From positions 186,001 to 250,000 of the IMG/VR virus record IMGVR_UViG_3300042540_001399: a stretch of DNA of 64,000 bases. The stretch is one strand, 5' to 3'. The position numbers were made by a program, and so were the translations under genes. Of this stretch, positions 38,715 to 53,183 are shown one piece after another. Numbering within the stretch: position 1 is the first letter of the stretch; the number at the start of each line of letters is the position of its first letter. Source of the stretch: a virus. The notes beneath the pieces were generated by a model. That model was not told the origin of the DNA, did no database searches, and saw only the letters and a program-made list of their open reading frames with translations.

Positions 38715-38727
38715 CTAAAAGATTATT

Positions 38728-39378: not shown

Positions 39379-39447
39379 TGAAAAATTTACACATATTATT
39401 GATAGGGGGCGATTTAGCTGAAGCAACTTTCAAGAAGAGGGTGTAAT
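39379..39447 (+). CDS. 22-residue candidate peptide
   Basis: MKNLHILLIGGDLAEATFKKRV between an AT-rich promoter-like region (TTGACA, later TATATTTATAA at about 39351) and a terminator. It could instead be part of a small RNA (about 39360-39500). Confidence 0.3.
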
Positions 39448-39469
39448 ATTTTATACATTTAATATTTAG

Positions 39470-39500
39470 AACCCCTCTTCCAAAAAAGAGGGGTTTTTTG
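39470..39500 (+). terminator. rho-independent terminator
   Basis: AACCCCTCTT pairs with AAGAGGGGTT, then a T run. It ends the small transcript that begins near 39360. Confidence 0.85.
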
Positions 39501-39530
39501 TTTTAGGTTCTTTGAAATAATGGTAATAAT

Positions 39531-39615
39531 GGTTCGGTGGTGGAATTGGCAATACACGACAGGTTTAAGCCCTGTTTCCCATTGAGGATTGTGGGTTCGA
39601 GTCCCACCCGGACTA
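39531..39615 (+). tRNA. tRNA-Leu (anticodon TAA)
   Basis: GGTTCGG/CCGGACT acceptor, anticodon stem ACAGG/CCTGT with loop TTTAAGC, long variable arm, T stem GTGGG/CCCAC. Reads UUA, a very common codon in this AT-rich genome. Confidence 0.9.
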
Positions 39616-39619
39616 CAAC

Positions 39620-39717
39620 AAAAACACATAAACTTTGGTTCCCACACAGCGGTGAGACGGGGTAAGTTATATACAATTTCTCGGGGCTGGAAGTAGAAAG
39701 CCAAAGAATGTGTTTTT
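39620..39717 (+). ncRNA. unknown folded RNA C in tRNA array
   Basis: Closing stem AAAAACACAT/ATGTGTTTTT, next helix CTTTGG/CCAAAG, with inner hairpins CCC/GGG and TTTCT/AGAAA: a multi-branch fold of about 98 nt. It starts 5 nt after the discriminator of tRNA-Leu. No tRNA arms, no reading frame. Confidence 0.5.
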
Positions 39718-39738
39718 TTAAAAAAAACTTTACAAAGT

Positions 39739-39770
39739 ATTTGGTAGAACAAAATAAAAAATTTAATTTT
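39739..39770 (+). promoter_or_regulatory. Bacteroidota host-type promoter
   Basis: TTTG (39739-39742), 20 nt, TAATTTTG (39763-39770), 7 nt before the ATG at 39778. Confidence 0.75.
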
Positions 39771-39777
39771 GTAATAA

Positions 39778-39894
39778 ATGAAGACAATTGAAGTTACATA
39801 TCAAGAAATCAAAATGGCAACAAGGCCAAATGTGTATAAAAATAAAAAAAAATACACAAGAAAAGAAAAACATAAAAAAGATTTGGTAGATTAA
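39778..39894 (+). CDS. 38-residue very basic protein
   Basis: MKTIEVTYQEIKMATRPNVY then a Lys-rich tail. It is preceded by a perfect host-type promoter and overlaps the next promoter. It could bind nucleic acid; unrecognised. Confidence 0.55.
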   Translation: MKTIEVTYQEIKMATRPNVYKNKKKYTRKEKHKKDLVD

Positions 39895-39913
39895 AAAAAA
39901 TCTTATATCTTTG
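39882..39913 (+). promoter_or_regulatory. Bacteroidota host-type promoter
   Basis: TTTG (39882-39885), 20 nt, TATCTTTG (39906-39913). It drives the block of RNAs D and E and the following tRNAs. Confidence 0.78.
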
Positions 39914-39924
39914 TTAAACAAATG

Positions 39925-39965
39925 ACGGGGGTAGGAAAATTAGTGTTGTGGATTCCTACTCCCGT
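39925..39965 (+). ncRNA. long 5' leader hairpin D
   Basis: ACGGGGGTAGGAA pairs with TTCCTACTCCCGT (13 bp with one G-U) around a 15 nt loop. It begins about 10 nt downstream of the promoter at 39906-39913, so it is probably the 5' end of the transcript. No T run, so not a terminator. Confidence 0.55.
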
Positions 39966-39984
39966 GTAAAAGGGAAGAAAGTTC

Positions 39985-40092
39985 TTTGATTTAAAATATT
40001 GTGGTTGTAAGCAATGGGAAACTCGTTAAGTACATCAACCAGTTGGCTCAAGATGGTGAAACGAGAGTGTGAGTCAACTACTAAATCACAAA
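39985..40092 (+). ncRNA. unknown three-way-junction RNA E with kissing loops
   Basis: Closing helix TTTG-ATTTA with TAAAT-(CA)-CAAA; hairpin 1 TGGTTG (40002-40007)/CAACCA (40036-40041); hairpin 2 AGTTGGCTCA (40041-40050)/TGAGTCAACT (40070-40079). The loop of hairpin 1 holds CTCGTT and the loop of hairpin 2 AACGAG, a perfect six-base loop-loop match. A strong sign of a real tertiary fold. Confidence 0.55.
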
Positions 40093-40103
40093 AAAAATGA
40101 AAT

Positions 40104-40228
40104 AGGCAAGTGGCGGAATTTATGGCAGACGCTTAGGTTGATTCCCCGTAAGAAGTCACCGAGATATAGCTGGGGATGTCTCTTGAAAAGGGAACTATAT
40201 CGTACAGGTTCGAATCCTGTTTTGCCTA
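40104..40228 (+). tRNA. aberrant tRNA-Leu-like gene with about 50 nt extra
   Basis: AGGCAAG/TTTGCCT acceptor, GTGGCGGAATT...GCAGAC D arm and CAGG-TTCGAAT-CCTG T arm are those of a Leu tRNA, but the central part is 125 nt long overall. It contains CTTA/TAAG, CCCC/GGGG and GATATAG/CTATATC pairings, so the anticodon cannot be assigned with confidence. Either a tRNA with an insert in the anticodon/variable region or a tRNA-like RNA. Confidence 0.6.
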
Positions 40229-40233
40229 CACAT

Positions 40234-40306
40234 CGCGGGATGTGGAAGATGGTTATCCGCTCGGTCTCATAAGCCGAGATCGCCGGTTCGAGTCCGGCTC
40301 CCGCAA
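40234..40306 (+). tRNA. initiator tRNA-fMet (anticodon CAT)
   Basis: CGCGGGA pairs with TCCCGCA leaving the C1-A72 mismatch that marks bacterial initiator tRNA. The anticodon loop is CTCATAA; its stem keeps two of the three G-C pairs and has T-G at the third. T stem GCCGG/CCGGC. Confidence 0.9.
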
Positions 40307-40311
40307 CTTAA

Positions 40312-40371
40312 AGGGTGGATAGGTGGAAGGGCCTTTCCTGAAAGACGGTTTACTAGGCCCGTGTCCACCCT
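40312..40371 (+). ncRNA. small folded RNA F in tRNA array
   Basis: AGGGTGGA/TCCACCCT closing stem, GGGCC/GGCCC, then CTTTC/GAAAG hairpin: a nearly continuous 60 nt rod with internal loops. No anticodon or T arm. It lies directly 3' of the initiator tRNA. Confidence 0.5.
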
Positions 40372-40382
40372 ACTGAATTTAT

Positions 40383-40462
40383 GCTGACGTACCAGTGGAT
40401 GCTTATATCATCTATACCTGTAGCGGTAAGTTGAAAACGTTGGTTCGAATCCAACCGTCAGT
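40383..40462 (+). tRNA. D-armless tRNA-like gene (anticodon possibly TAT)
   Basis: GCTGACG/CGTCAGT acceptor and a perfect GTTGG-TTCGAAT-CCAAC T arm. Only seven bases separate the acceptor from a GGATG/CATCT hairpin with loop CTTATAT (TAT, Ile AUA), leaving no room for a D arm. A long variable arm (TACC/GGTA) follows. Either a minimal tRNA or a decoy. Confidence 0.5.
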
Positions 40463-40464
40463 AC

Positions 40465-40612
40465 GGGAGTGTATGCAGTAGAGATCTGCTTATGATGGTA
40501 GGGACAAACACTTTAAAAAAGGGTCCCAAAGAGATAAGCCGTTTAGTAGTTTTGGTCGATAAAAACTAACGGATTTTATAGTAATGGTTCACCGATCGAA
40601 ACCAATACTCAT
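40465..40612 (+). ncRNA. unknown folded RNA G in tRNA array
   Basis: GAGT/ACTC can close the element. Inside are hairpins GCAG/CTGC, GGGAC/GTCCC, CCGTT-AGT/ACTAACGG and AGTA-TGGTT/AACCA-TACT. TCGAT in one loop could pair with ATCGA in another. No reading frame; a terminator follows at 40652. Confidence 0.45.
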
Positions 40613-40651
40613 GATGTCAGAAAGGTTGATCACCTAATTCATGTAAACACC

Positions 40652-40681
40652 GTGACAACACCCCAAAGTTGTCACACTTTT
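40652..40681 (+). terminator. rho-independent terminator
   Basis: GTGACAAC pairs with GTTGTCAC and is followed by ACTTTT, just before tRNA-Gly. Confidence 0.75.
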
Positions 40682-40757
40682 GCGGGAGTAGCTCAATTGG
40701 TAGAGTTCCAGCCTTCCAAGCTGGCTGTTGAGGGTTCGAATCCCTTCTCCCGCTCCA
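40682..40757 (+). tRNA. tRNA-Gly (anticodon TCC)
   Basis: GCGGGAG/CTCCCGC acceptor, anticodon stem CCAGC/GCTGG with loop CTTCCAA, T loop TTCGAAT, followed by an encoded CCA. Confidence 0.93.
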
Positions 40758-40761
40758 AGTT

Positions 40762-40834
40762 GGGCCTGATGCCGACGGCAGGTCGAGTGGTTTGCAACCA
40801 CATCGTTTGGGTTCGATTCCCACAGTGTCCACCA
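40762..40834 (+). tRNA. tRNA-Ala (anticodon TGC), atypical body
   Basis: Anticodon stem GTGG/CCAC with loop TTTGCAA (TGC), T arm TGGG/CCCA, encoded CCA. The acceptor GGGCCTG/AGTGTCC has two mismatches but retains the G3-U70 pair that defines alanine tRNAs. The D arm is short. Confidence 0.75.
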
Positions 40835-40858
40835 AATAAACAAAAAAACAAAGTAGTG

Positions 40859-41014
40859 ATGAAGGAAGTTTTGTCAGGAACTTTAAAATCAAGAAAAGTT
40901 AATTTTGTTCAGATTGAAAATAACAGTGATTTTTTAAGTTCTTTAAGAAAAAAAATAAAAAAAAGAATAAGTAATTTAAAAAAAACAATTAAATTTGTAA
41001 AAAAAAGAAGATGA
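40859..41014 (+). CDS. 51-residue basic protein
   Basis: MKEVLSGTLKSRKVNFVQIE... with a strongly basic C-terminal half (KKIKKRISNLKKTIKFVKKRR minus its ends). It lies between tRNA-Ala and RNA H; its stop codon is inside the closing stem of RNA H. Unrecognised; perhaps RNA-binding. Confidence 0.55.
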   Translation: MKEVLSGTLKSRKVNFVQIENNSDFLSSLRKKIKKRISNLKKTIKFVKKRR

Positions 41015-41086
41015 GTTTCCCTACATCCCGGATTAGTGAGAAACTTAAAGAGGGACAAAAGTGGTACACAAGTCCACGACTCATCT
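41010..41086 (+). ncRNA. three-way-junction-like RNA H
   Basis: AGATGAGT (41010-41017) pairs with ACTCATCT (41079-41086), eight perfect bases. Inner hairpins GTTTC/GAAAC and GTGG/CCAC complete a three-way junction of 77 nt, tRNA-sized but without tRNA signature arms. It ends 6 nt before tRNA-Glu. Confidence 0.5.
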
Positions 41087-41092
41087 TAATTT

Positions 41093-41164
41093 GGTCGGTT
41101 CATCTAGGGGTCAGGATACAAGGTTTTCATCCTTGTCACACGGGTTCGAATCCCGTACCGACTA
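41093..41164 (+). tRNA. tRNA-Glu (anticodon TTC)
   Basis: GGTCGGT/ACCGACT acceptor, anticodon stem CAAGG/CCTTG with loop TTTTCAT, T stem CGGG/CCCG with TTCGAAT. Confidence 0.93.
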
Positions 41165-41189
41165 CAAACCTGTCAAGGTAGTACAGGAA

Positions 41190-41305
41190 GGTCAGGAGTG
41201 TAATGAGGCACGGTGCCAAGTCCTAAAGACACCACGGTCCAAGAGCAATTTGGACGCGAGAAGTTATAAGGTTGCTCATTGTAGGTTCGAATCCTACCCT
41301 GACTT
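41190..41305 (+). tRNA. aberrant tRNA-like gene with embedded pseudoknot
   Basis: GGTCAGG/CCTGACT acceptor and a perfect GTAGG-TTCGAAT-CCTAC T arm, but 116 nt long. The central insert has GTCCAA/TTGGAC with GAGCAA in its loop, and GAGCAA can pair with TTGCTC further on: a classical H-type pseudoknot. An anticodon cannot be assigned. It shares this extended-tRNA design with the gene at 40104. Confidence 0.55.
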
Positions 41306-41307
41306 CA

Positions 41308-41451
41308 CGGTTCGGATCATCACCGAATAGTATGCCCAATACGATGAGAAATGAGGTGATACCTCATATGGGACTTCTGATAGATAAAGGATCTATTCGG
41401 TTTGACTAACCGCGGGAAATATCAAAGAGGGTTGAAGAACTACGTACCCTC
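41308..41451 (+). ncRNA. unknown folded RNA I in tRNA array
   Basis: Nested helices CGGTT/AACCG, CCGAATAG/CTATTCGG, GCCCA/TGGG and GAGGT/ACCTC (loop GAT), followed by a GAGGGT/ACCCTC hairpin. It ends about 10 nt before tRNA-Asp. No reading frame. Confidence 0.5.
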
Positions 41452-41461
41452 GAGTCCAATT

Positions 41462-41536
41462 GGTCCATTGGTGTAGTGGCTAACATTCATCCCTGTCACG
41501 GATGAGCCGCGAGTTCGATTCTCGCATGGACCGCCA
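41462..41536 (+). tRNA. tRNA-Asp (anticodon GTC)
   Basis: GGTCCAT/ATGGACC acceptor, anticodon stem CATCC/GGATG with loop CTGTCAC, T loop TTCGATT, discriminator G and encoded CCA. Confidence 0.93.
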
Positions 41537-41558
41537 AACTTATTAAAAATTAACCATT

Positions 41559-41828
41559 ATGAAAACTTTTCAAGACTTGGAATTTATAAAAATAAATGAT
41601 GCACCGTTTATGGTTGGTAAAAAATCCCGTATGCATTTTGATAATGGGTTCGGTGTATCTGTTGTATCACACTCTTATTCATATGGGGGTCGTGATGGTC
41701 TTTATGAAGTCGCGGTCCTTGACTCTGACGACAATCTTACCTACGATACTCCAATAACCAATGATGTAATGGGTTACTTAACTGAACAAGATGTTACTAA
41801 TGTCATGAAACAAGTTCAAGAGCTATAA
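41559..41828 (+). CDS. small hypothetical protein
   Basis: 89 aa: MKTFQDLEFIKINDAPFMVG, GVSVVSHSYSYGGRDGLYEV, then a C-terminal helix. The pattern is familiar from phage genomes but function is unknown. Between tRNA-Asp and tRNA-Met. Confidence 0.75.
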   Translation: MKTFQDLEFIKINDAPFMVGKKSRMHFDNGFGVSVVSHSYSYGGRDGLYEVAVLDSDDNLTYDTPITNDVMGYLTEQDVTNVMKQVQEL

Positions 41829-41831
41829 AAG

Positions 41832-41900
41832 ATGACAGTTTTTTTATTCATAACATTTTTAACGACACTTTTTTTGTTGAGAAAAAAAAGAAAGTTTTAA
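41832..41900 (+). CDS. 22-residue membrane peptide (candidate)
   Basis: MTVFLFITFLTTLFLLRKKR with a short tail: one hydrophobic helix and a positive C-terminus, directly after the previous gene. Uncertain. Confidence 0.35.
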   Translation: MTVFLFITFLTTLFLLRKKRKF

Positions 41901-41913
41901 GTAGATAAAAAAA

Positions 41914-41987
41914 GGTCTCTTAGCTCATTAGGTTAGAGCAACTGACTCATAATCAGTAGGTGGTTGGTTCGATCCCAACAGGGACCA
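41914..41987 (+). tRNA. tRNA-Met (anticodon CAT)
   Basis: GGTCTCT/AGGGACC acceptor, GCTC/GAGC D stem, anticodon stem ACTGA/TCAGT with loop CTCATAA. Lacks the C1-A72 initiator mark, so elongator Met, or Ile2 after modification. Confidence 0.88.
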
Positions 41988-42032
41988 CAAAAGTATTGAA
42001 TATTTTAAAACAGAAATTATTATTTATAATAT

Positions 42033-42106
42033 GCACCCGTAGCTCAGCTGGATAGAGCAACTGCCTTCTAAGCAGTAGGTCAATGGTTCGAATCCATTCG
42101 GGTGTA
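42033..42106 (+). tRNA. tRNA-Arg (anticodon TCT), copy 2
   Basis: GCACCCG/CGGGTGT acceptor, anticodon stem ACTGC/GCAGT with loop CTTCTAA, T loop TTCGAAT. The body differs from copy 1 at 37288. A TATTTATAA element lies just upstream. Confidence 0.92.
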
Positions 42107-42124
42107 CTTTTTTTTTATTTTTTT

Positions 42125-42980: not shown

Positions 42981-43023
42981 TTTTGTTAAAATTTTTTATT
43001 ATTTATATTATAAACATCATCAC

Positions 43024-43113
43024 ATGGACAACTCAATCATAGCGGCAATATTAACACCAATAGTTCTATTTGGTATTTTTCTTTATTTCTACTTTACAGA
43101 TAAAGAATACTAA
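43024..43113 (+). CDS. 29-residue membrane peptide
   Basis: MDNSIIAAILTPIVLFGIFL then YFYFTDKEY: one transmembrane helix, acidic N-terminus. A TTATTTATAT motif lies upstream. It may be a small lysis or membrane-modifying peptide; unproven. Confidence 0.5.
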   Translation: MDNSIIAAILTPIVLFGIFLYFYFTDKEY

Positions 43114-43117
43114 AGTT

Positions 43118-43726
43118 TTATTTTATATCGGTAGACTCTAAAAGTGTGTAAGAAAATTTGTTACCATGGATTTTTGCCGCTTTTTTACATATTGACATAA
43201 ATTCATCAAAATCTTTAACTCTTTTAAATACCTGACATCCTTCGGACCAATTTTCAACCCAAGTCGAGTCCTGACCGGCTTTGTGTATGTTAATACCAAA
43301 CATTCCTGTGTCTGTTTTAGTTTCTTCAAAAATTAAATCTTTATTAGAATCTCTCCAAACTGTTACATTACCTAATCTTTGGCAAAGAGCGTCGTATTTC
43401 CCTTGATGTTTATCAATTTTCCAAACACCTCGATACTGGCCGGGTACTAATCTTGCAACGCCATTTTTGTTGTGAAATTCCATGACCCCTTTTTTACCAG
43501 GATCACATGTTGCCATCCAACAATGAAATTTCCAACTGCCTGTTTCGTCTTTATAAGTTATCGTTAGACAATCATCAAAAACATTTGTGACTTTGTCAGC
43601 AACACTTGGTTCATTATTTCTAACACCAACAATATTTACATCATAACCTTTGTTAGATGCGTCGTCAAACCATTTAAAATTTTTTGATTTGACAGTAGTT
43701 TCTATTTGTTCTTTTGTATAACACAT
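43118..43726 (-). CDS. L,D-transpeptidase (YkuD)-like protein
   Basis: 202 aa. The C-terminal part INIHKAGQ...WSEGCQVF matches the H...SxGC(R/Q) catalytic pattern of YkuD L,D-transpeptidases, with the Cys in SEGCQV as nucleophile. FHCWMATCDPGK and GVMEFHNKNGVARLVPGQY are consistent with the beta core. No signal peptide. Probable peptidoglycan enzyme. A TATATTTATAA motif precedes it on the minus strand. Confidence 0.65.
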   Translation of the reverse strand: MCYTKEQIETTVKSKNFKWFDDASNKGYDVNIVGVRNNEPSVADKVTNVFDDCLTITYKDETGSWKFHCWMATCDPGKKGVMEFHNKNGVARLVPGQYRGVWKIDKHQGKYDALCQRLGNVTVWRDSNKDLIFEETKTDTGMFGINIHKAGQDSTWVENWSEGCQVFKRVKDFDEFMSICKKAAKIHGNKFSYTLLESTDIK

Positions 43727-43779
43727 AATATATTTTTTTTTATAAATATAAAGTTTTTCAAAAAGTAAATAGTTTGATA

Positions 43780-43788
43780 ATATTTATT
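43780..43788 (+). promoter_or_regulatory. candidate phage late promoter motif ATATTTATT
   Basis: ATATTTATT lies 3 nt before the ATG at 43792. It would start the histidine-kinase and lysis operon. Confidence 0.5.
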
Positions 43789-43791
43789 AAT

Positions 43792-45549
43792 ATGTCAAAA
43801 TTGTCTAAAGTATCTTTTTTTATTTCGATAGTGATTATGTCAATTTATTTTGTGACACAATCTTTACTTGTGACAGGAAACATAAGTTATAGTAAAAATA
43901 TCGGTTATGCTGGATATATATGTTTTTTACTTTTTGTATCTTTTTTTGGGATTTACATTTATGAATATTTGAAAAAAAACAAAAAAATAAAAAAAAGAAG
44001 TGATTACGTTAAAAAATTAAATGAAACATTAATATATCAATCATTAAATTCTTCTTTTTTCGAAGGTAACACGTCAGAAGGCGCTAAAGTTCTAACTAAA
44101 GAAGTCAGTAATTCAATCAATGCTGACAGATGCTCAGTTTGGTTGTACAATACAGACAGAACTTCAATTATTTGTCAACAATTGTATTCCAAAAAAACTG
44201 ACAGCTGGGAACAAAATTATGAATTATTAAAAGAAGATTATAAACCTTATTTTTTATCTCTTTTATTAAATCCTATCATAGTTGCAAATGATGCAAGAAA
44301 TCATAGTGCAACATCATGTTTTAAAGACACTTATCTTGACCCATTGGGTATTAAATCTATGCTTGATGTTCCCATTTCCTACAAGGGAGACACTATTGGG
44401 GTAATATGTATTGAAAATTTTGATTTTAGAATTTGGGACCAAGTTGAAATTGATTTTGCTCAAATGTTATCAGCATTATATTCATTTGCATATTCAATAA
44501 AAGAAAATAATAATGTTAATAAGACAATTGATGATATTGAAGGATTTATAGATCATTCGGTATTAGTAAGTAAAACGGATTCTAAGGGTAAGATAGTTTA
44601 TGTGAATAAAAAGTTTGAAGATGTTTCTGGTTGGAAACTTAGTCAGGTAATAGGAAAAGATCATAACATTGTTAATTCAGGAAAACATACCAAAAATTTT
44701 TGGAAAGACATGTATAAAACAACAGTAGAAAAAAGAAAGATTTGGAACCAAATAGTTACAAATAAAACAAAAAAAGGTGAACTTTATTGGGTTGATTCTT
44801 ATATAATGGCAGAATTTGACGAACAAGATTGTTTAAAAGGGTTTATGTCTATAAGGTATGATGTTACAGATTTGATAAAAAAAACTGAAGAAATAGCGAA
44901 GAAAAATGTTTATTTGGAACATGCCGCAAAAATATTAAGACATGATATGCATTCAGGAATTAATACTTACATACCAAGAGGGATAAGTTCGTTAGAAAGA
45001 AGATTGAGTGATAACCAAATTCAAGAATATAAATTGGAAGCCCCTTTGAAAATGTTGAAAGAAGGTCTCAAACACGCTCAGAAAGTTTATAAAGGTGTTT
45101 ATGAATTTACTAATTTAGTAAAAAAAGATTCAGTGCTCAACAAAACTAAAGTAAACTTAAAAGAAATATTAGAAAGTTACCTATCAACAACATCATATAA
45201 ATCACAAGTTGTAATTGATACTTTAGAAGACCATGAAGTTAATGAACCTTTATTTTGTACCGCCATCGATAATTTAATTAGAAATGGCCTCAAATATAAT
45301 GACAATGATAACAAATTTGTACATTTATATATGGAAGATTTTCAGTTGGTAATTCAGGATAATGGAAGGGGGCTGTCACAAGAAGAATTTGACAATTTAT
45401 CGAAACCATACGTAAGAAAAGAAAACCAAAAAGAAAGTGGTAGTGGTTTAGGTTTAAATATATGTTTAGCAATACTCAAAGAACACGGATTCAGCGTTTC
45501 TTGTGAAAAAAACCATATAGGCACTAAAATTAAAATTAAATTCAAATGA
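43792..45549 (+). CDS. membrane sensor histidine kinase (GAF-PAS-DHp-HATPase)
   Basis: 585 aa. Two membrane helices (about residues 5-60), a GAF-like domain (about 75-235), a PAS domain (about 250-360: SKGKIVYVNKKFEDVSGWK), a coiled coil, a dimerisation His box ILRHDMHSGINTYIPRGISS (His near residue 384), and a HATPase domain with N box NLIRNGLKYND, G1 DNGRGLS, G2 GSGLGLN. All ATP-binding boxes are intact. Autophosphorylates on His and passes phosphate to a receiver. The stop overlaps the next ATG. Its His box is nearly identical to that at 46150. Confidence 0.92.
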   Translation: MSKLSKVSFFISIVIMSIYFVTQSLLVTGNISYSKNIGYAGYICFLLFVSFFGIYIYEYLKKNKKIKKRSDYVKKLNETLIYQSLNSSFFEGNTSEGAKVLTKEVSNSINADRCSVWLYNTDRTSIICQQLYSKKTDSWEQNYELLKEDYKPYFLSLLLNPIIVANDARNHSATSCFKDTYLDPLGIKSMLDVPISYKGDTIGVICIENFDFRIWDQVEIDFAQMLSALYSFAYSIKENNNVNKTIDDIEGFIDHSVLVSKTDSKGKIVYVNKKFEDVSGWKLSQVIGKDHNIVNSGKHTKNFWKDMYKTTVEKRKIWNQIVTNKTKKGELYWVDSYIMAEFDEQDCLKGFMSIRYDVTDLIKKTEEIAKKNVYLEHAAKILRHDMHSGINTYIPRGISSLERRLSDNQIQEYKLEAPLKMLKEGLKHAQKVYKGVYEFTNLVKKDSVLNKTKVNLKEILESYLSTTSYKSQVVIDTLEDHEVNEPLFCTAIDNLIRNGLKYNDNDNKFVHLYMEDFQLVIQDNGRGLSQEEFDNLSKPYVRKENQKESGSGLGLNICLAILKEHGFSVSCEKNHIGTKIKIKFK

Positions 45550-46148
45550 AAAAAATTTTTTTATTATTCAACTTTTTATTTATAACTTTTTTGTTACACG
45601 GACAAAATTCTTACCCAATCCAAACAATTTTAAAGGGTGATTCAGTTGTAATTTATACCACAGATCAATCAAATGATTTGAATTTGACAATAGAAAATCA
45701 AAGATTCTTATCATCTACTTATAAAACTAAACTTGAAGACTATAGTAAAAAAATTGACAGTTTAGAAAAAAACATAAATAATAAACAGATGGTAATAGAT
45801 AGTTTATATTTAACACATAAAAATCAAGACAGTTTACAACAAAGATTATACGTACTTGAAAATTGGTTAATAAAAGCATCAATTGACAACTCTTACATTT
45901 ATATGTCATGGCCAGATCATACTATTAAATTTGTGGATTTAACATTATATACAGTTCATTGTAGTATGCAAAATGGTACTTTAAGAATGATTAGAAGAGG
46001 ACCAAATGATGAATTTGAAATTTGGAAAGGATTAAATTATATTAGAAAAGAAAGTCCAGAAATTGGTTGGGAAATGAAATATACTGAAGACGAACGACCA
46101 ATAGTAAAAAATCTACCAATAAACATAAAAATTAACGACTACAAATAA
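45546..46148 (+). CDS. secreted coiled-coil protein of the kinase operon
   Basis: 200 aa. Signal peptide MKKIFLLFNFLFITFLLHGQ, beta segment, coiled coil (about residues 55-105), then a C-terminal beta domain with YMSWPDHTIKFV. Probably periplasmic; placed between two sensor kinases, it may present or sense a signal. No family recognised. Overlaps the first kinase gene by 4 nt. Confidence 0.75.
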   Translation: MKKIFLLFNFLFITFLLHGQNSYPIQTILKGDSVVIYTTDQSNDLNLTIENQRFLSSTYKTKLEDYSKKIDSLEKNINNKQMVIDSLYLTHKNQDSLQQRLYVLENWLIKASIDNSYIYMSWPDHTIKFVDLTLYTVHCSMQNGTLRMIRRGPNDEFEIWKGLNYIRKESPEIGWEMKYTEDERPIVKNLPINIKINDYK

Positions 46149-46149
46149 G

Positions 46150-47604
46150 ATGAAAAAAATAATTTTTATTCTTTTAATATTGTTTTCATTCTACAATATA
46201 ACAATCGCACAAGGACTTATCAAAAATAAAAAAGAAATTACCGAGTCTATGTGGGATCAAGGAGTGCCTGTCTTACCTGAAGATGAATATATTTCATCTT
46301 TAATTGATAAAGTTGGATTCGATAACTTAAGACAAAGAAATAAAGCCGTTAACAAAGAAGAAGCTAAATTGTGTAGAGAAATTGGTATTGCTTTTTACAA
46401 TAGAGAAATGTATGAAGCTGCTGATTGGTATTTGGAAAGAGTACGAGGTTTTGTTGAAGTTGTTGAACTTGAACCTGAAATAGTTTTTGAAACTAAAAAA
46501 GAAGAAACCGAAGAACCTTCAGAAGATTTATCTGTGGAAGATTTGAAAAGTCTACAGTCAGACAAGGTTTTTTTACAAAACCTACCAAAAAGTTATGAAA
46601 ATGTTTCACCTACAGATATGAAAAAATTGGCAGAAGAAATTGAAGGTCAAATAGAAAAACTTATTAAAGAAAAGGAAGAATTACTAAAAAGACACGCTCC
46701 TAAAGAAGTGATAGATGCTAAAGATGCGACTATAGGGTCATTAGGAAAAGAAAAAAAAATCATAGACCTATCAATAGATAAAGACAAACTTAAAAATGAA
46801 ACAAAAGTTTTGGGTATTGAAAAAAGAAATTTGAAATTTTATTTAAATTGGGCAATAGCTATAGGTTTGATATTAATATTAATAATATTTGTTTTAATAC
46901 AGAGAAAAACTATCAAAGGACAGGATAAAGAAATTGATAAACAACTAAATGACATAAATACTAAAAACACGTATTTAGAACATGCGGCAAGAATAATCAG
47001 ACATGATATGCATTCTGGTATAAACACATATATTCCAAGGGGTATATCTTCTTTGGAAAAAAGGCTGACTGTCGACGACATGAAAAATCTTAAGATCGAA
47101 GGTCCAATAAAGATGATTCGTGAAGGTTTAAATCACACCCAAAAAGTTTATAAAAATGTTTATGAATTTACAAATTTAGTTAAACAAAATGTTGTTTTAG
47201 AAAAAACCAAACAAAATATAAAAAATACTTTAGAACAGTTTTTTGTAAAAACATCATACTATAATCAAATCAAAATAAAGAATCTCCCGACTTTAGAAAT
47301 TAATGAAGTTCTTTTTTGTGGGGCAATTGAAAACTTTGTGAAAAATGGTCTAAAATACAATAATAACGAAAATAAAGAAGTTTTAATTTTTGAAGAAGAT
47401 AATTATATAGTAGTACAAGATAATGGTATTGGTATGACATCAACTGAATTTGAAAAACAAATTAAAATAGTTTCTAAAGAAGATATTGGTGAAATCGGTT
47501 TAGGCTTAAATATTTCAATTGCCATTTTAAAAGAACACGGATTTAGTGTTGAATGTGAAAAAAATGAAATTGGAACTAAAATAAAAATTAAATTTAAAAG
47601 TTAA
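46150..47604 (+). CDS. second sensor histidine kinase with periplasmic domain
   Basis: 484 aa. Signal peptide (MKKIIFILLILFSFYNITIA), periplasmic acidic and coiled-coil region to about residue 230 (EAADWYLERVRG recalls a TPR), one membrane helix (about 233-252), His box IIRHDMHSGINTYIPRGISS (His near residue 285) and HATPase boxes NFVKNGLKYNN, DNGIGMT, GEIGLGLN. C-terminus GTKIKIKFK as in the first kinase. The pair probably arose by duplication and shuffling of sensors. Confidence 0.9.
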   Translation: MKKIIFILLILFSFYNITIAQGLIKNKKEITESMWDQGVPVLPEDEYISSLIDKVGFDNLRQRNKAVNKEEAKLCREIGIAFYNREMYEAADWYLERVRGFVEVVELEPEIVFETKKEETEEPSEDLSVEDLKSLQSDKVFLQNLPKSYENVSPTDMKKLAEEIEGQIEKLIKEKEELLKRHAPKEVIDAKDATIGSLGKEKKIIDLSIDKDKLKNETKVLGIEKRNLKFYLNWAIAIGLILILIIFVLIQRKTIKGQDKEIDKQLNDINTKNTYLEHAARIIRHDMHSGINTYIPRGISSLEKRLTVDDMKNLKIEGPIKMIREGLNHTQKVYKNVYEFTNLVKQNVVLEKTKQNIKNTLEQFFVKTSYYNQIKIKNLPTLEINEVLFCGAIENFVKNGLKYNNNENKEVLIFEEDNYIVVQDNGIGMTSTEFEKQIKIVSKEDIGEIGLGLNISIAILKEHGFSVECEKNEIGTKIKIKFKS

Positions 47605-47608
47605 AAAA

Positions 47609-48046
47609 ATGATTGATTCTATTTTATTAGTTGATGATGAGGATTTATTCCACTTGGTGTTTGAAGACGCTTGTTCTTTATTGGACATAAGTTTATCTTT
47701 AAAATCTATAAATAGTGCAGATGAAGCGGCATCAATGTTTAAAAAATGGTTAGAAGAAAAAACACCAGAAAGTAGACCTGAATGTGTTTTTGTTGATCTT
47801 AATATAATTGGTAGTTCATTTGATGGTATTGAACTTATAAGAAAAATAAATTTCGAATACGGAAATCATGTTGTAATAGGAATTATTTCATCATCTAACG
47901 AACCAGAAGAACAAGCTAAAGCACTACAAGCAGGTGCACAATTTTGGATTATAAAATCTGATGAAATTGAACCTAGACTTGAAGAATTCAAAAAAGATTA
48001 TGATCAGTATAAAAACAGAACCGCACCATTTAAAGTATACAAATGA
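47609..48046 (+). CDS. stand-alone response-regulator receiver domain
   Basis: 145 aa. VDDED at residues 8-12 (acidic pocket), phospho-acceptor Asp63 in VFVDLNI, Ser94/Ser95 in IISSSN, and Lys116 in WIIKSDE: a complete receiver. No output domain. It can therefore act as a phosphate sink or relay, or by binding a partner such as the coiled-coil membrane protein encoded next (4 nt overlap). Confidence 0.9.
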   Translation: MIDSILLVDDEDLFHLVFEDACSLLDISLSLKSINSADEAASMFKKWLEEKTPESRPECVFVDLNIIGSSFDGIELIRKINFEYGNHVVIGIISSSNEPEEQAKALQAGAQFWIIKSDEIEPRLEEFKKDYDQYKNRTAPFKVYK

Positions 48047-48720
48047 TTAAAATAGATAGTAATACTAAAAAAACTTTAATTGATCTTTATAACAAAAAGG
48101 GTATAGGTCTTGAAGGTAATATTACTAAACTTATAGATGTTGAAAACGACGAAGAGTTCAAAACGTATTTAAAAGAATGTAAGGCTAAAGACGAAGAAAA
48201 AAGAAAAAAACGTCTTGACATGACAAAAAAAATACAAAAACAAAATGAAGATTTGGTTGTTGCAAACACAGAAAACAATAGAATTATGGAGGAACTTCAA
48301 CAAAGTTTACTTGAAGTTGAAGAATCCAAAACAATTTTTGAAAACCAAAACAAAGAACTCAACGATTGGAAAAAAGAAAATTTAGAACTGACTGAAAAAT
48401 TACAAATTGAAATGTCAAACGCTGAAATGGCTAAGTTAGAAGCCTTGAAGGCTAAGGAAATGGCGGAAAATGATTTAGACTTGTTACAGAAAAAAAATCA
48501 AACAGAACTTATTTCTACTATAGTCAGAGTTGCTTTATGGGTAATTGTTGGTGTTGGTATAATTACTACTGGTGTTTATATGTTCACTTTATTATTAGGT
48601 AAAGACACACAGGTTATTAGTGCTGCGTGGTCAAATATTTTTGGTATTTTACTTACCAATGCATTTTCAATAGTGGGTACTATTATGGGGATTAAATATG
48701 CAACTGAAAATAAACAATAA
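48043..48720 (+). CDS. coiled-coil membrane protein of the kinase operon
   Basis: 225 aa. Long charged coiled coil (about residues 45-160) then two membrane helices (IVRVALWVIVGVGIITTGVY and SNIFGILLTNAFSIVGTIMG). It overlaps the receiver gene and lies 10 nt before the endolysin gene. The two-helix membrane part is holin-sized, so it may be the effector linking the receiver to membrane permeabilisation; inference from position only. Confidence 0.75.
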   Translation: MIKIDSNTKKTLIDLYNKKGIGLEGNITKLIDVENDEEFKTYLKECKAKDEEKRKKRLDMTKKIQKQNEDLVVANTENNRIMEELQQSLLEVEESKTIFENQNKELNDWKKENLELTEKLQIEMSNAEMAKLEALKAKEMAENDLDLLQKKNQTELISTIVRVALWVIVGVGIITTGVYMFTLLLGKDTQVISAAWSNIFGILLTNAFSIVGTIMGIKYATENKQ

Positions 48721-48730
48721 AAAATAGATT

Positions 48731-49567
48731 ATGTTACTTAAAGTAGGATCAGAAGGGGCTGATGTAAAAAAACTCCAAGAAAAATTAGGTGTTGAAACAA
48801 TAGGAAAGTTTGGACCTAAAACCGAAGCTGCGGTAAAAGCATGGCAAAAAGCAAATGGATTAAAAGATGATGGTATTGTTGGTGATGCAACTTGGAGCAA
48901 AATGTTTGGGGAATCTACCCCAAAAACAAATGTTATTAAAGAAGATGTTGTTATACCAAGTGGTGGTCCTTTAAATATTGAAAAGTTAAAAGGACACATA
49001 CCTGATTCTGTTTTGGCCCAAATTCCGGAAACCGCAAAAAAATTTAATATTACAAACAATTTAAGATTAGCACACTTTTTATCACAATGTGGTCATGAAT
49101 CTGGTGGATTCAAAGCTGTCAGTGAAAATTTAAATTATTCAGCCGATGGTTTAAAAAAGATTTTTGGAAAATACTTTCCGGGTAACCTGAATGAATCTTA
49201 CGCTCGTAAACCCGAAAAAATTGCGTCCCGTGTTTATGGTAACAGGATGGGAAATGGTGATGAGGCGTCAGGCGAAGGATATAAATTCAGAGGTAGGGGT
49301 TACATCCAACTTACAGGAAAAAGTAACTATACAAATTTTTCTAAATTTATAGGTGAAGATTGTGTTTCAAATCCTGATTTAGTTGCAACAAAATATCCTT
49401 TAGCGTCTGCGGCATTCTTTTTTGATTCAAATAAATTGTGGTCTATTTGTGACAAGGGAGCCGATGATGCCACTGTTACATCTGTAACCAAAAGAGTTAA
49501 TGGGGGAATTTTAGGTTTATCAGACAGAATTAAACACTTTAAAGAGTATTATAACCTTATTAAGTGA
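48731..49567 (+). CDS. endolysin: peptidoglycan-binding domain plus GH19 chitinase-like domain
   Basis: 278 aa. N-terminal PG-binding repeat (residues 1-60: GSEGADVKKLQEKLG, FGPKTEAAVKAWQ, GIVGDATW). The GH19 domain follows from about 80: LRLAHFLSQCGHESGGF (catalytic Glu), NRMGNGDEASGEG, FRGRGYIQLTGKSNY, ASAAFFF. GH19 enzymes of phages cut glycan strands. No signal peptide, so release needs a holin; holin-like genes lie on both sides. Confidence 0.93.
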   Translation: MLLKVGSEGADVKKLQEKLGVETIGKFGPKTEAAVKAWQKANGLKDDGIVGDATWSKMFGESTPKTNVIKEDVVIPSGGPLNIEKLKGHIPDSVLAQIPETAKKFNITNNLRLAHFLSQCGHESGGFKAVSENLNYSADGLKKIFGKYFPGNLNESYARKPEKIASRVYGNRMGNGDEASGEGYKFRGRGYIQLTGKSNYTNFSKFIGEDCVSNPDLVATKYPLASAAFFFDSNKLWSICDKGADDATVTSVTKRVNGGILGLSDRIKHFKEYYNLIK

Positions 49568-49575
49568 TATTTATA
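49567..49575 (+). promoter_or_regulatory. candidate phage late promoter motif ATATTTATA
   Basis: Exact nonamer overlapping the endolysin stop codon (49565-49567) and lying 28 nt before the holin-like gene. Confidence 0.45.
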
Positions 49576-49603
49576 ATAAAATAAACCATAAAAAACAAAT
49601 TTT

Positions 49604-49771
49604 ATGAAATTAACTAAAGAACAAATTATGGGAATTATCAGACACGGACTAACATTCGTAGGTGGTATTCTTATAATGAAAGGGCTTGTTACTGAGTCAG
49701 TCGTTGCAGACATAACTGGTGCACTTATGACTTTAACAGGTGCTATTTGGTCTATTGTTGATAAAAAATAA
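49604..49771 (+). CDS. holin-like small membrane protein
   Basis: 55 aa: MKLTKEQIMGIIRHGLTFVG, GILIMKGLVTESVVADITGA, then LMTLTGAIWSIVDKK. Two short hydrophobic helices separated by a TESVV turn, basic C-terminus. Size, topology and position right after the endolysin make it a holin candidate. Terminator follows. Confidence 0.7.
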   Translation: MKLTKEQIMGIIRHGLTFVGGILIMKGLVTESVVADITGALMTLTGAIWSIVDKK

Positions 49772-49788
49772 ATTGTGTAAATAGACTT

Positions 49789-49818
49789 AAAAACCCTCGA
49801 TAATTTCGGGGGTTTTTA
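49789..49818 (+). terminator. rho-independent terminator
   Basis: AAAACCCTCGA pairs with TCGGGGGTTTT. It ends the kinase-lysis operon that begins at 43792. Confidence 0.8.
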
Positions 49819-49854
49819 TTTTTGTAACATATTTATTATATAAAAATTAAATTT

Positions 49855-50511
49855 ATGAAAAAGTTGATAACTGAAAACGAAAAAAATAGAATTAGAAAAA
49901 TGAATTCTATTGATGAAAGTTTATTTTCAGATGTGTTGGCATCAATACAAAAATCAGAAACTTTTCAGGATCTTAAAAAGAAATTCAAGGAATTAACGGG
50001 TGTTGACTTTGAAGAAAAAGAAAAGTCGGGAGATGTAAGCAAAGATTTCAAAAATTATAAAATTACCGAACCTAATGATGATGACATCAAGTTTTATAAA
50101 AAAATACTTGAAAAATTGGACGCACCTAATACTAAAGAAAATTTAGCGTTTCTTTACGCGTGGAGACAAGCGGAGGGTGCAAAATCCGCCTTTAACCCTT
50201 TTAATACCACACAAGAAATGGATAGTTCAACATTTATGAACTGTCTGAAGAAAAAAGATAATAAGTGTATTGGGGGAGTTAGAAATTATAAATCTGAAAA
50301 AGATGGAATAGATGCTACAGTCAAAACTTTGAAAAATGGTAGATATGATTGTATTGTTAATGGTTTACAAAAAAATAAAGGGTCAAAAGATATCGCCAAA
50401 TGTAGTTCTTTAGATACTTGGGGAACAAAAGACGGTATTTTAAGAGTTTTAGATGGTGGTAAAATAAATCCACCTGAAATATCAAGATCCACAATAAAAA
50501 AAGTTGATTAA
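49855..50511 (+). CDS. leader-bearing lysozyme-like protein
   Basis: 218 aa. Leader MKKLITENEKNRIRKMNSID then ES. From about residue 80 the sequence (NLAFLYAWRQAEGAKSAFNP, then NYKSEKDGIDATVKTLKNG, RYDCIVNGLQ) resembles a lysozyme-fold hydrolase, with a candidate catalytic Glu in RQAEG. Probably particle-associated, given the leader. A motif ATATTTATT precedes it. Confidence 0.65.
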   Translation: MKKLITENEKNRIRKMNSIDESLFSDVLASIQKSETFQDLKKKFKELTGVDFEEKEKSGDVSKDFKNYKITEPNDDDIKFYKKILEKLDAPNTKENLAFLYAWRQAEGAKSAFNPFNTTQEMDSSTFMNCLKKKDNKCIGGVRNYKSEKDGIDATVKTLKNGRYDCIVNGLQKNKGSKDIAKCSSLDTWGTKDGILRVLDGGKINPPEISRSTIKKVD

Positions 50512-50512
50512 T

Positions 50513-51121
50513 ATGGAAGAATACGTAGGGATTATTATTGCGTTTATAACAGGTGTGTTGGGACCAATATTACTTTTATACTTGAAAAACAAATTAGAAA
50601 AAAAAGAAAAGCCAGACATGGTCAAAGACACTCTGAGAGTTGCTGAGTTGGTAAATAATAAAATTGAACATATTCGTGAAGAATTTAATGCCGATCGTGT
50701 TTGGGTTACACAATTTCATAATGGTGGTAATTTTTATCCTACAGGTAAATCAATGGCAAAATTTTCAATAATGTATGAAACAGTAAATTCTGGCGTTTCT
50801 TCAGTTCAAACTAATTTTCATAATATACCTGTTAACCTTTTTTCTAAGTCTATAAATCAATTATTAAATAACGATACTATTGAAATTGCCGACTACAAAG
50901 ATGAAACAATAGCAACTTACGGACTAAAATATATTGCTGAAGATACAGGTTGTAAATCAAGTTACTTATTTGCAATAAAAACAATTGATGAAAAGTTTAT
51001 TGGTACATTAGGTTTAGATTATACCAAAAGAAAAACTAAATTAGATATTGAATCTATAAATCATTTATTGGTTCACGCAACGTCTTTAGGTGGTGTTTTG
51101 ATGACACACTTGTCTGAATAA
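50513..51121 (+). CDS. membrane-anchored GAF-like protein
   Basis: 203 aa from the ATG at 50513. One N-terminal helix (YVGIIIAFITGVLGPILLLY), then a GAF-like domain (ADRVWVTQFHNGGNFYPTGK, later GCKSSYLFAIK and FIGTLGLDY). GAF domains bind small molecules; here it may sense a signal near the kinase operon. Confidence 0.7.
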   Translation: MEEYVGIIIAFITGVLGPILLLYLKNKLEKKEKPDMVKDTLRVAELVNNKIEHIREEFNADRVWVTQFHNGGNFYPTGKSMAKFSIMYETVNSGVSSVQTNFHNIPVNLFSKSINQLLNNDTIEIADYKDETIATYGLKYIAEDTGCKSSYLFAIKTIDEKFIGTLGLDYTKRKTKLDIESINHLLVHATSLGGVLMTHLSE

Positions 51122-51156: not shown

Positions 51157-51645
51157 ATGAATATTTTTTTTCTTGACTACGATACCCAAAAATGTGCACA
51201 ATATCATTGCGATAAACATGTGGTCAAGATGGTATTAGAAACTGCACAACTTTTATGTGGGGTTCATCATACAACCCCCCAAGTTACCCCCCAAGTTCCC
51301 TACAAGTTATCCCACAAAAATCACCCATGCGCAATATGGACTCGTGAAAGTTTATCAAACTACTTATATCTTTGTGATCTTGGTTTAGAATTATGTAATG
51401 AATATAGTTTTAGATATGGTAAAACACATAAGTCACAACAAGTAATCGAGTGGTGTCTTGATAATAAACCAAACATAGTTGATAAAGGTTTTACCACACC
51501 ACCAAAAGCAATGCCCGATGAATATAAAGTTTTTGACGTTATTGAATCTTATAGAAACTACTATCGTGGGGCAAAAAAAAGTTTTGCTTCATGGAAAAAT
51601 AGACAAATACCCGATTGGTTTCAAACTGATGAAGTATTTATATGA
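51157..51645 (+). CDS. conserved phage protein of the CDKHVVKM type
   Basis: 162 aa. MNIFFLDYDTQKCAQYHCDK, HVVKMVLETAQLL, HPCAIWTRES, NYLYLCDLGLELCNEYSFRYG, TPPKAMPD: a pattern I recognise as widespread in tailed phages but without an assured function; DNA-repair-like or nuclease roles are possible. A TATTTTTG box just upstream may be a weak host-type promoter. Confidence 0.75.
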   Translation: MNIFFLDYDTQKCAQYHCDKHVVKMVLETAQLLCGVHHTTPQVTPQVPYKLSHKNHPCAIWTRESLSNYLYLCDLGLELCNEYSFRYGKTHKSQQVIEWCLDNKPNIVDKGFTTPPKAMPDEYKVFDVIESYRNYYRGAKKSFASWKNRQIPDWFQTDEVFI

Positions 51646-51656
51646 TAAAATCATAT

Positions 51657-53183
51657 ATGAAAGGTTTATTAAATGAACATTTGACTAGAATAAGATCATT
51701 GATGTCTATCAATGAATCTTTAGTTGATGCATACCCAAAATTTTCGAAAAAAATATTTGATGAAGTAGACCCTACTTGGGGTGGTGGGCCAAATTCGCAT
51801 TCATCAAGACACCCTGATGCATCCGGCAAAGATTGGTTTAGTAATAACGCATACGACATCATGGCACCTGAAGGGACACCAATATATTCAATATCGGAAG
51901 GTTATGTTGATAAAATTACCGACAATCCACCAGGTTTAAGATCAGTTGGTGGTAAGAGAATTTATGGGGACAGTTTAACCATTAGAGGAACAGGGGGTGA
52001 TCCCGATGTTTTCTACACACATGTAACAAAAATTGTTGTTGAAGAGGGACAATACGTTGATAGGGGTCAATTATTAGCATTCATAATCAAAGGGGAGTTG
52101 GGTATACCTGAACACGTTCATGTTGCAGTAAAAGTTGGTGATGTGAAAGATTTCTTAGATGTTGATGGAAACATAAACAGAGTCAATATTGATTTAGTGG
52201 ATAGACTAAAAATCTTACCAACAAACAAGGAACTTGAAGTGACAACCGACCCAAAAACAATAATGGGCGCTGCGGCCGGTCTTACCGCATCAGCTATAAG
52301 TTCTTTAAATATTAATAGACCTGAGTCTGACATCAGTGGCATTGCAACAAGATTCGGTATTAAAGATACTGATGTTAACATGGATTCGGTATCAGGTGTT
52401 TTGAATAAAATAATATTATCTTCTGAAGGTCTTGGTACTGATGAAACTGGAATTCATGATGCAATAAAGAAATTAAAAAGTTGTTATGAACTTGATGAAA
52501 TTAACAAAATTGTAGAAAGAAAAGAAATCGACGGAAAAAAATACAAAGACATTTATGATTATATAAATAGTGAAATGAATTATGGTGATGAGCTGTTTGT
52601 AAAAAGTTTAGTAAAAACCATAAATAATATATGTCCTGATACCGTAACTGATAAAGGTACTCAAATAGTGAAAGTAACAAGATCATCATCTTTAGGATCT
52701 GGAATCGATAGAGTCAGTCCTATAAAATTATTAAATGATCTAAAATCATATGGATTATCTGATAAGGCCGCCAAAGGTGTTGTTGCGAATGCTTTTGGTG
52801 AAAGTGGGTTTAACGTTAAGGCTAAAGGAGATTCTGGACCCAACGCCGAAAACAACACAAGATCAATAAATATAGATGGTAAAAAATACTGTTCGTTTGG
52901 ATTGTGGCAATATAATGTCTGTGGTGGTATGGGGGTTTCTTATTTGAAGAACTATAATATAGATGTTGACAGATCAACAGACGCTGAAAAAATCAGGGTT
53001 CTATTTGATTATAATAAACAAATTGAATTTATGTCTAAAAGAATTAAAGAAGAACAATCCAAAAGCGAAAAAGATGTTAGAACATGGATTGATTGGATTG
53101 TTGATAATGTAGAAAGACCATCAGATAGATACGGTGCAAAAATGAAAAGACAAGAATTTGCAAAACAACAAGGTTGGTCTTAA
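51657..53183 (+). CDS. M23-like domain plus phage tail lysozyme, leader-bearing
   Basis: 508 aa from 51657; an in-frame ATG at 51642 overlaps the previous stop and cannot be excluded. Leader MKGLLNEHLTRIRSLMSINE. M23-like domain (residues about 45-170): NNAYDIMAPEGTPIYSISEG has Asn in place of the first zinc His, while HVHVAV keeps HxH. C-terminal lysozyme domain from about 345: GLSDKAAKGVVANAFGESGF (catalytic Glu in GESGF), SFGLWQYN. One half may be inactive; the lysozyme half looks intact. Confidence 0.82.
   Translation: MKGLLNEHLTRIRSLMSINESLVDAYPKFSKKIFDEVDPTWGGGPNSHSSRHPDASGKDWFSNNAYDIMAPEGTPIYSISEGYVDKITDNPPGLRSVGGKRIYGDSLTIRGTGGDPDVFYTHVTKIVVEEGQYVDRGQLLAFIIKGELGIPEHVHVAVKVGDVKDFLDVDGNINRVNIDLVDRLKILPTNKELEVTTDPKTIMGAAAGLTASAISSLNINRPESDISGIATRFGIKDTDVNMDSVSGVLNKIILSSEGLGTDETGIHDAIKKLKSCYELDEINKIVERKEIDGKKYKDIYDYINSEMNYGDELFVKSLVKTINNICPDTVTDKGTQIVKVTRSSSLGSGIDRVSPIKLLNDLKSYGLSDKAAKGVVANAFGESGFNVKAKGDSGPNAENNTRSINIDGKKYCSFGLWQYNVCGGMGVSYLKNYNIDVDRSTDAEKIRVLFDYNKQIEFMSKRIKEEQSKSEKDVRTWIDWIVDNVERPSDRYGAKMKRQEFAKQQGWS

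Follow-up and report, generated by a model that had tools for sequence, protein, structure and literature searches.

Phage two-component genes beside a membrane hairpin protein and lysis genes: a candidate phosphorelay for the timing of lysis

When to lyse the host is one of the main life-history decisions that a virulent phage makes, and its known environmental inputs are few. The stretch of DNA analyzed here (the window) comprises 64,000 nucleotides, positions 186001 to 250000 of the 290,887-base IMG/VR virus record IMGVR_UViG_3300042540_001399, and raises the question of what use a phage makes of two sensor histidine kinases (HK1 and HK2) and a lone receiver (REC) encoded in one operon with lysis genes. 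The predicted operon spans positions 43792 to 49818 on the + strand, where HK1, a secreted protein, HK2, REC, a coiled-coil protein with two transmembrane (TM) segments (CC2TM), a GH19 endolysin, a holin, and a terminator follow each other head to tail (Table 1), most of the gene junctions being overlaps or gaps of a few bases. The order, strand, close spacing, and terminator given in a preliminary description of this DNA were confirmed by the open reading frames (ORFs), by Pfam, and by a terminator-like hairpin. As the best explanation of the whole, it is moderately probable that the locus encodes a phosphorelay that sets the timing of lysis via a membrane protein, and the system is rated here as a new kind built from known parts.

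The conserved unit among relatives is HK-REC-CC2TM. At least 587 relatives of REC are present in IMG/VR, and the hundreds of related sequences come from metagenomes only. The 83 REC ORFs of the first loci form 55 clusters at 97% nucleotide identity, and a homologous HK was found in 51 and CC2TM in 53 of these 55 loci, with genes called by script through a greedy choice of ORFs rather than by a trained gene finder; one REC and two CC2TM of this set fell outside the clusters because of contig ends or gene calls. Both REC and CC2TM are present in 81 loci, and in 80 of these the two genes overlap, by 4 or 1 bp. A scan with the DNA of the His box alone, which makes no use of REC, retrieved at least 119 loci, among which REC follows the kinase in 101 and 17 of the other 18 are cut at the locus edge; CC2TM lies in the fetched stretch of 90 of the 101 loci, among the matches listed. 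The set was widened by a scan for the hairpin motif of CC2TM and by two protein searches to 188 distinct CC2TM-type proteins, and upstream of the 160 with at least 1.2 kb of upstream sequence, REC was found in 158 cases (150 adjacent and 8 with an insertion) and HK in 157. Several loci come from one contig (e.g., L298 and L336), and contigs or distinct proteins were counted where relevant. Related phages, in which the preliminary description had proposed to look for the same gene order, keep the kinase-receiver order.

The insertions just mentioned place 0.3 to 1.7 kb between REC and CC2TM in L195, L199, L208, L214, L227, L243, L249, and L255, which retain the module in other respects. An ORF of about 240 amino acids with a NUMOD3 motif, as in homing endonucleases, lies between HK2 and REC at L217:1736-2458 (the same contig as L053), and similar gaps are seen in L060 and L070.

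The structural model of CC2TM combines a head, one long helix, and a C-terminal hairpin at residues 190 to 222, with a mean predicted local distance difference test (pLDDT) score of 84 and a predicted template modeling (pTM) score of 0.32. Class II holins have two TM segments with both termini in the cytoplasm; in CC2TM, two TM segments are predicted by hydropathy, the hairpin appears in the model with this pTM, and the topology is predicted from charges only. The longest invariant run of CC2TM falls in the hairpin, and a fold search returned one clear relative, an uncharacterized 52% homologue from an uncultured phage. The same hairpin also occurs without kinase or receiver, joined via a coil to a PAS domain in 8 distinct proteins and to a GAF domain in 3. 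These segments are 76 to 83% identical to the nearest CC2TM hairpin, and in a midpoint-rooted tree of this short segment, PAS-hairpins and GAF-hairpins form two separate clades (support of 0.89 and 0.99) inside the diversity of CC2TM, a pattern that points to two or more exchanges of the input. The fused PAS is related to the PAS of many kinases (matches over query residues 2 to 144 in kinase loci), and the fused GAF is related to that of HK1, a phmmer search with the HK1 GAF retrieving the GAF-hairpins; sensors thus appear to have been traded between kinases and hairpin proteins. Neither REC nor an HK core was found in eight records that encode a PAS- or GAF-hairpin, some of which are short fragments and three of which measure 47, 160, and 182 kb, while both control records with a full module scored in both searches. 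These whole-record tests used the REC and HK-core searches instead of PF00072, which missed REC in L372 and L349, where our own REC profile and the REC search find it. Compared with the small holin of a lysis cassette, hairpin proteins are found beside endolysins, though not in every locus, but have about 190 to 360 amino acids with a sensor or a coil, often with a separate holin-like gene nearby. The hairpin is best read as a putative lysis effector or holin regulator with interchangeable inputs, for which the input in the window would be a phosphorelay.

In all 13 contigs with a PAS-hairpin gene (L336 to L348), an endolysin gene lies directly downstream, and the endolysins belong to the three unrelated families GH19, M15, and GH24. 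In L336 to L340, the start of a GH19 gene overlaps the end of the hairpin gene by 4 bp, and in L343 GH19 is followed by a PF05105 holin; the downstream gene encodes Peptidase_M15_3 in L341 and L342 and a GH24 phage lysozyme in L344 to L348, one of these running off the end of its contig. Pfam, applied to nine of the 13 contigs, agrees with the endolysin calls. Holin-like or spanin-like genes are found beside PAS-hairpin/endolysin pairs. In L413, a holin-like gene and GH19 come after the GAF-hairpin gene, and the GAF-hairpin of L414 is one gene away from GH19.

The two-component form is also linked to an endolysin far above chance. A strong match to the window GH19 is present in 15 of 21 large records, and in 13 of these 15 it lies at most 4 kb from REC, where 1.2 are expected; after sister records are collapsed, the count is 10 of 11 versus 0.8 expected. 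The expected counts assume uniform placement, and the choice of the 21 records among the REC loci was made largely on size, with the window GH19 as the only query. A terminase match is present in six of these records, at a distance of 14 kb or more from the endolysin, the largest value spanning the ends of a linear record. The position of the endolysin differs by group, as it is found directly downstream, after small genes, or divergently upstream of HK1, and the association between module and endolysin therefore recurs in several orders. Of the distinct head-hairpin loci, 62 have 4 kb of flanking sequence on each side, and in these a GH19-, M15-, or GH24-like gene was found in 36 (within 6.5 kb upstream or 4 kb downstream) and an endolysin-like or holin-like gene in 45; these proportions count distinct proteins, not independent events.

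A number of observations weigh against a phosphorelay that sets the timing of lysis. GH19 lies 26 and 34 kb from REC in two records, and the match to the window GH19 is weak or absent in 6 of the 21 large records. The GAF-hairpin of L412 has a holin-like neighbor and no recognized endolysin in its stretch, and among the 62 head-hairpin loci, 26 are without a GH19-, M15-, or GH24-like gene and 17 have neither that nor a holin-like gene; outside these 17, spanin-like lipoproteins were picked up by a crude pattern in L204, L224, L238, L251, and L264, and Amidase_2 in L240. Most holin-like neighbors were named by size and hydropathy, with no family match, and CC2TM itself has no significant match in Pfam or PHROGs, where it hits no holin family, and no fold match in the PDB at an E value of ≤0.001. 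The unit is also incomplete in places, since L248 has a His-box kinase without REC and the CC2TM-type genes at L332:6579-7235 and L429:4824-5480 stand in 74- and 178-kb records without REC or HK core. REC was found in only 1 of 36 records carrying the large terminase subunit (TerL), which were chosen mostly by size from 80 and are mostly fragments, with lengths of up to 187 kb; many close relatives may thus lack the module or have it at another place. A cultured member was not found in the phage collection searched.

The linkage between the two-component module and the endolysin is thus strong and not universal. Of the linkage to lysis claimed earlier, the association itself stands, while the endolysin, tried as a part of the conserved unit, was rejected because it is distant or not recognized in part of the relatives. 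The module could instead control another late membrane function, such as superinfection exclusion, membrane remodeling, or virion export, and lie near the lysis genes only because these are fellow late envelope genes. Such a role would suit the incomplete lysis linkage of the two-component form and a hairpin without holin-family match, but it is made unlikely by the position of the PAS-hairpin gene directly before three unrelated endolysin families in every contig, with the 4-bp overlap in five. A lysis function of the module is rather probable.

The active site of the receiver is intact in all relatives compared. D9, D10, D63, S94, and K116 do not vary in any of the 172 distinct REC sequences, that of the window included; over this set, 46 of 145 positions are invariant, and the pairwise identity has a median of 77%. 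In the kinases, N, G1, and G2 are likewise invariant wherever the letter was aligned (219 to 223 of 226 kinases). The earlier claim of a complete two-component system with intact catalytic residues is supported. The 226 distinct kinases were chosen by their His box, and everything counted here (RECs, kinases, and PAS domains) had first passed a cutoff of score, length, or motif. Bacterial lone receivers often feed other proteins, and REC might in the same way plug into host regulatory or motility circuits, as a CheY-like or phosphorelay hijack, with CC2TM serving only as its anchor or phosphatase. The invariant positions of REC look as if held by a fixed partner, and REC varies less than the kinases or CC2TM do among sequences chosen for REC similarity; the sample of the top 80 REC sequences is biased towards the window. 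However, CC2TM accompanies REC nearly always, and eight records in which REC and HK were not detected have the hairpin joined to a sensor, which indicates that the hairpin has an output of its own and leaves a hijack of host circuits quite improbable.

Phages pick up host genes, and a bacterial or plasmid origin of the unit was considered as a candidate. An exact scan for REC peptides in 84,980 species genomes retrieved a single relative (L086), which lies on a contig of a metagenome-assembled genome that was binned in a bacterial genome and is phage-like by its ORFs, its module REC being 71% identical; the only match among 245 genomes of one phylum was this same genome, and the module had no plasmid match. 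This origin was set aside on these grounds, the bacterial searches being narrow and a distant bacterial ancestor possible. No relative of REC was found in 50,697 annotated phage records at an E value of 0.01, and CC2TM had no match in the same records. Two records with a partial match to the window terminase, of only 26 to 27% identity, have RECs that are 84 to 86% identical, which suggests that the module moves between phages. A defense system was also considered and rejected, as PADLOC models gave only weak matches, the best at 0.0012. That the kinases and receiver are passenger host genes without a role in the phage cycle, as could be imagined from the proposed host origin of the agr genes of the Clostridioides phage phiCDHM1 (PMC3901668, described, like the papers cited below, from excerpts of the text), is highly improbable given the intact catalytic residues and the phage-like contig of the only relative in the species genomes.

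The kinases provide the variable part of the module, in which their number (one or two) and their input domains differ while REC is constant. In the window, the kinase cores of HK1 and HK2 are 61% identical over 223 residues, and their His boxes of 18 residues, previously described as nearly identical, are identical; in relatives, one REC likewise occurs with one or two kinases having the common His box. The two N-terminal TM segments of HK1 and the TM segment of HK2 were assigned by reading the sequence. A secreted coiled-coil protein stands beside HK2-type kinases in part of the relatives (14 of 55 REC clusters).

The PAS domain of HK1 has the PAS-A domain of MmoS as its best PDB match, with E values of 1.5e-19 for the whole protein and 7e-35 for a profile of 14 sequences, and the next matches of the profile are Aer (3e-22) and NifL (4e-14), all three being flavin adenine dinucleotide (FAD) redox sensors. 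Its structural model (mean pLDDT of 93) places Aer at rank 1 and NifL at ranks 2 to 4 in Foldseek, with MmoS at rank 17 and a superposition of 1.3 Å, while LOV domains score nearly as high by fold. The LOV cysteine motif is presumably missing in this domain. In excerpts of the work on Aer, the flavin contacts H53, N85, and R115 correspond to H132, N164, and R195 of MmoS, and the His and Arg contacts are somewhat uncommon among flavin-binding PAS domains (PMC9668731). The same positions are occupied in HK1 by H291, N324, and R355, and among 99 type-1 PAS domains, with gaps set aside, the contact His is kept in 96 of 97, Asn in 99 of 99, and Arg in 98 of 99. A LOV photoreceptor was rejected as a reading of this domain: the fold matches LOV too, but the sequence and the flavin contacts favor the redox group. 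One position speaks against the MmoS-like assignment, that of MmoS Thr103, where HK1 has Thr as well and 60 of 96 type-1 PAS domains have Ala. Because sequence and fold are closest to Aer, MmoS, and NifL and the flavin contacts of Aer and MmoS are kept, a redox or respiratory input of HK1 is likely. Across the module kinases, redox-type PAS input is common and not universal, with type-1 PAS in 99 of the 226 distinct His-box kinases and no recognized PAS in 58.

From these parts, a pathway can be proposed in which HK1 would read the redox or respiratory state of the host through its putative FAD-binding PAS together with the GAF domain, and HK2 would read an envelope signal, perhaps with the secreted protein as partner. 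Both kinases would phosphorylate the single REC at Asp63, and phosphorylated REC, or REC itself, may bind the LEGN head or the coiled coil of CC2TM and change the state of the two-TM hairpin. The hairpin would then influence the holin step, its most likely role being that of a signal-gated antiholin or holin cofactor, which is favored because the window has a separate small holin and holin-like genes stand beside many relatives. What the sequences show are the parts, their conservation, and one hairpin with exchanged inputs next to unrelated endolysins; FAD binding, the signal of HK2, phosphotransfer, the REC-CC2TM contact, and the effect on the holin with its direction are steps that we infer. 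In other phages, a fused PAS or GAF sensor would act directly on the same hairpin. More broadly, though this is held tentatively and as somewhat short of probable, a family of signal-gated lysis proteins may exist, in which one hairpin acting at the holin step takes its input from a fused PAS or GAF domain or, in large phages, from a redox two-component phosphorelay, so that lysis is timed by host respiration and envelope state without transcription. The earlier suggestion that phages time lysis by an envelope or chemical signal was right in direction, and it overlooked the proposed output protein CC2TM, the Aer/MmoS-type PAS of HK1, and the one-component PAS- and GAF-hairpin relatives.

If this is true, hundreds of uncultured phage sequences have a dedicated sensory pathway that ends in a lysis protein of the membrane, and its modular inputs, namely redox PAS, GAF, and extracytoplasmic kinase, are swapped between one- and two-component designs. 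The system suggests that viruses may read the redox or envelope state of the host when timing their release, and the question of whether phages sense host energy state to time lysis becomes directly testable with few purified proteins. A role is thereby proposed for the CC2TM/hairpin family, previously without significant match in Pfam, PHROGs, and the annotated phage records searched.

Among known systems, the closest analogue in working appears to be T4 lysis inhibition and the closest in logic LytST/LrgAB. T4 RI is believed to detect the DNA of superinfecting phages directly, in the periplasm, and T4 lysis inhibition is not known to involve a kinase, receiver, PAS, or GAF. The likeness lies in a phage regulator that adjusts holin-dependent lysis to a signal, in T4 with the holin T and the antiholins RI and RIII (PMC11413866 and PMC8385771, in excerpts). 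The RI, RIII, and T families gave no match in Pfam and PHROGs searches of the window proteins, and by the tests made, the module is not a member of the T4 system. Lysis inhibition is nonetheless a better analogue than arbitrium, with its peptide and its lysis-lysogeny decision, for which what was examined gave no support although the preliminary description had drawn that parallel. LytST/LrgAB is a two-component system of Gram-positive bacteria linked to holin-like membrane proteins and to oxygenation (PMC3507848, in excerpts); it is bacterial and regulates lrgAB expression, whereas the phage REC is without a DNA-binding domain and is paired with a membrane protein.

Phage phiCDHM1 resembles the window in having a histidine kinase in a sensory cassette with an endolysin gene as neighbor. 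Its cassette comprises agrD, agrB, and the kinase gene agrC, and in the excerpts of the report, the authors found no response regulator, the AgrC-like protein is without identified receptor domain, and the set serves peptide quorum sensing, with no receiver-membrane hairpin pair described (PMC3901668). Jumbo phages encode a receiver-like domain, as does the large phage here, but theirs is a divergent Rec that, according to excerpts of its description, was never found in histidine-kinase systems and is tied to NAD+/ADP-ribose (ADPr) enzymes (PMC7824862), while the module REC is part of an HK operon. CheY and Spo0F are likewise single-domain receivers with the full active site seen in REC. REC differs from them in its distribution, which in this analysis is confined to uncultured phage sequences, and in its nearly constant coiled-coil two-TM neighbor. 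Aer, MmoS, and NifL are closest to the HK1 PAS, which keeps the His, Asn, and Arg flavin contacts of Aer and MmoS and differs in sitting in a phage kinase, where FAD binding is putative. In the open-licence PMC literature, the best-ranked matches included neither a phage system that joins a kinase-receiver pair to lysis nor a holin-like protein fused to PAS or GAF.

Table 1. Features of the kinase-receiver-lysis operon and of the gene preceding it, in window coordinates
Feature	Position	Strand	Basis or remark
HK1: two TM, GAF, FAD-type PAS (putative), His box RHDMHSGINTYIPRG, HATPase_c	43792..45549	+	Pfam GAF, PAS, HATPase_c
HK1 GAF domain	44086..44487	+	Pfam GAF residues 99-232; homologous to GAF of GAF-hairpin proteins
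HK1 PAS, Aer/MmoS-like putative FAD redox sensor	44527..44895	+	T262, G266, H291, N324, R355 (585-aa numbering)
Secreted coiled-coil protein	45546..46148	+	4-bp overlap with HK1
HK2: signal peptide, extracytoplasmic region, one TM, His box, HATPase_c	46150..47604	+	Pfam HATPase_c; no PAS
REC: lone receiver, phospho-acceptor D63	47609..48046	+	Pfam Response_reg
CC2TM: LEGN head (1-36), long helix (37-185), C-terminal membrane hairpin	48043..48720	+	4-bp overlap with REC
TM hairpin of CC2TM, common to PAS-hairpin and GAF-hairpin proteins	48514..48708	+	Sequence searches, tree
GH19 endolysin with peptidoglycan (PG)-binding domain	48731..49567	+	Pfam PG_binding_1, Glyco_hydro_19
Small holin, Pam3 gp28 family	49604..49771	+	Pfam Phage_holin_10 (PF23987)
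Intrinsic terminator-like hairpin, 13 pairs, closes operon	49788..49818	+	Only + strand such site found in 43000-50000
Divergent gene upstream of HK1	43118..43726	-	phrog_3000 (unknown); weaker match to endolysin family phrog_33083

Around the operon, the divergent gene upstream of HK1 possibly encodes a second wall enzyme, its membership in the module being uncertain; a homologue lies near the module in 11 of 55 REC clusters. On the other side, a protein matching phrog_38864 (50504 to 51121) adjoins the lysis operon and is found near the module in 7 of 55 REC clusters.

Within the operon, the gap between endolysin and holin measures 36 bp, and the motif TATTTATA lies 28 nucleotides before the holin (at 49568), so an internal promoter may be present there. 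In the window, this motif is found 0 to 60 nucleotides (mostly 4 to 19) upstream of 18 of the 75 ORF starts with ATG, where 1.8 are expected, for example before 154, 8782, 22745, and 34278, and it is perhaps a promoter or translation signal of this phage, with short leaders. The motif TATAAATA is overrepresented in the window (39 versus 12.3 expected); as a T4-like late promoter it was rejected, since the reverse orientation before start codons explains more (18 genes versus 5). Further afield, 22 tRNA genes are clustered upstream of the operon, at 35915 to 42107, and just downstream, the gene at 51642 to 53183 encodes M23 peptidase and phage tail lysozyme domains and is probably that of a virion wall enzyme.

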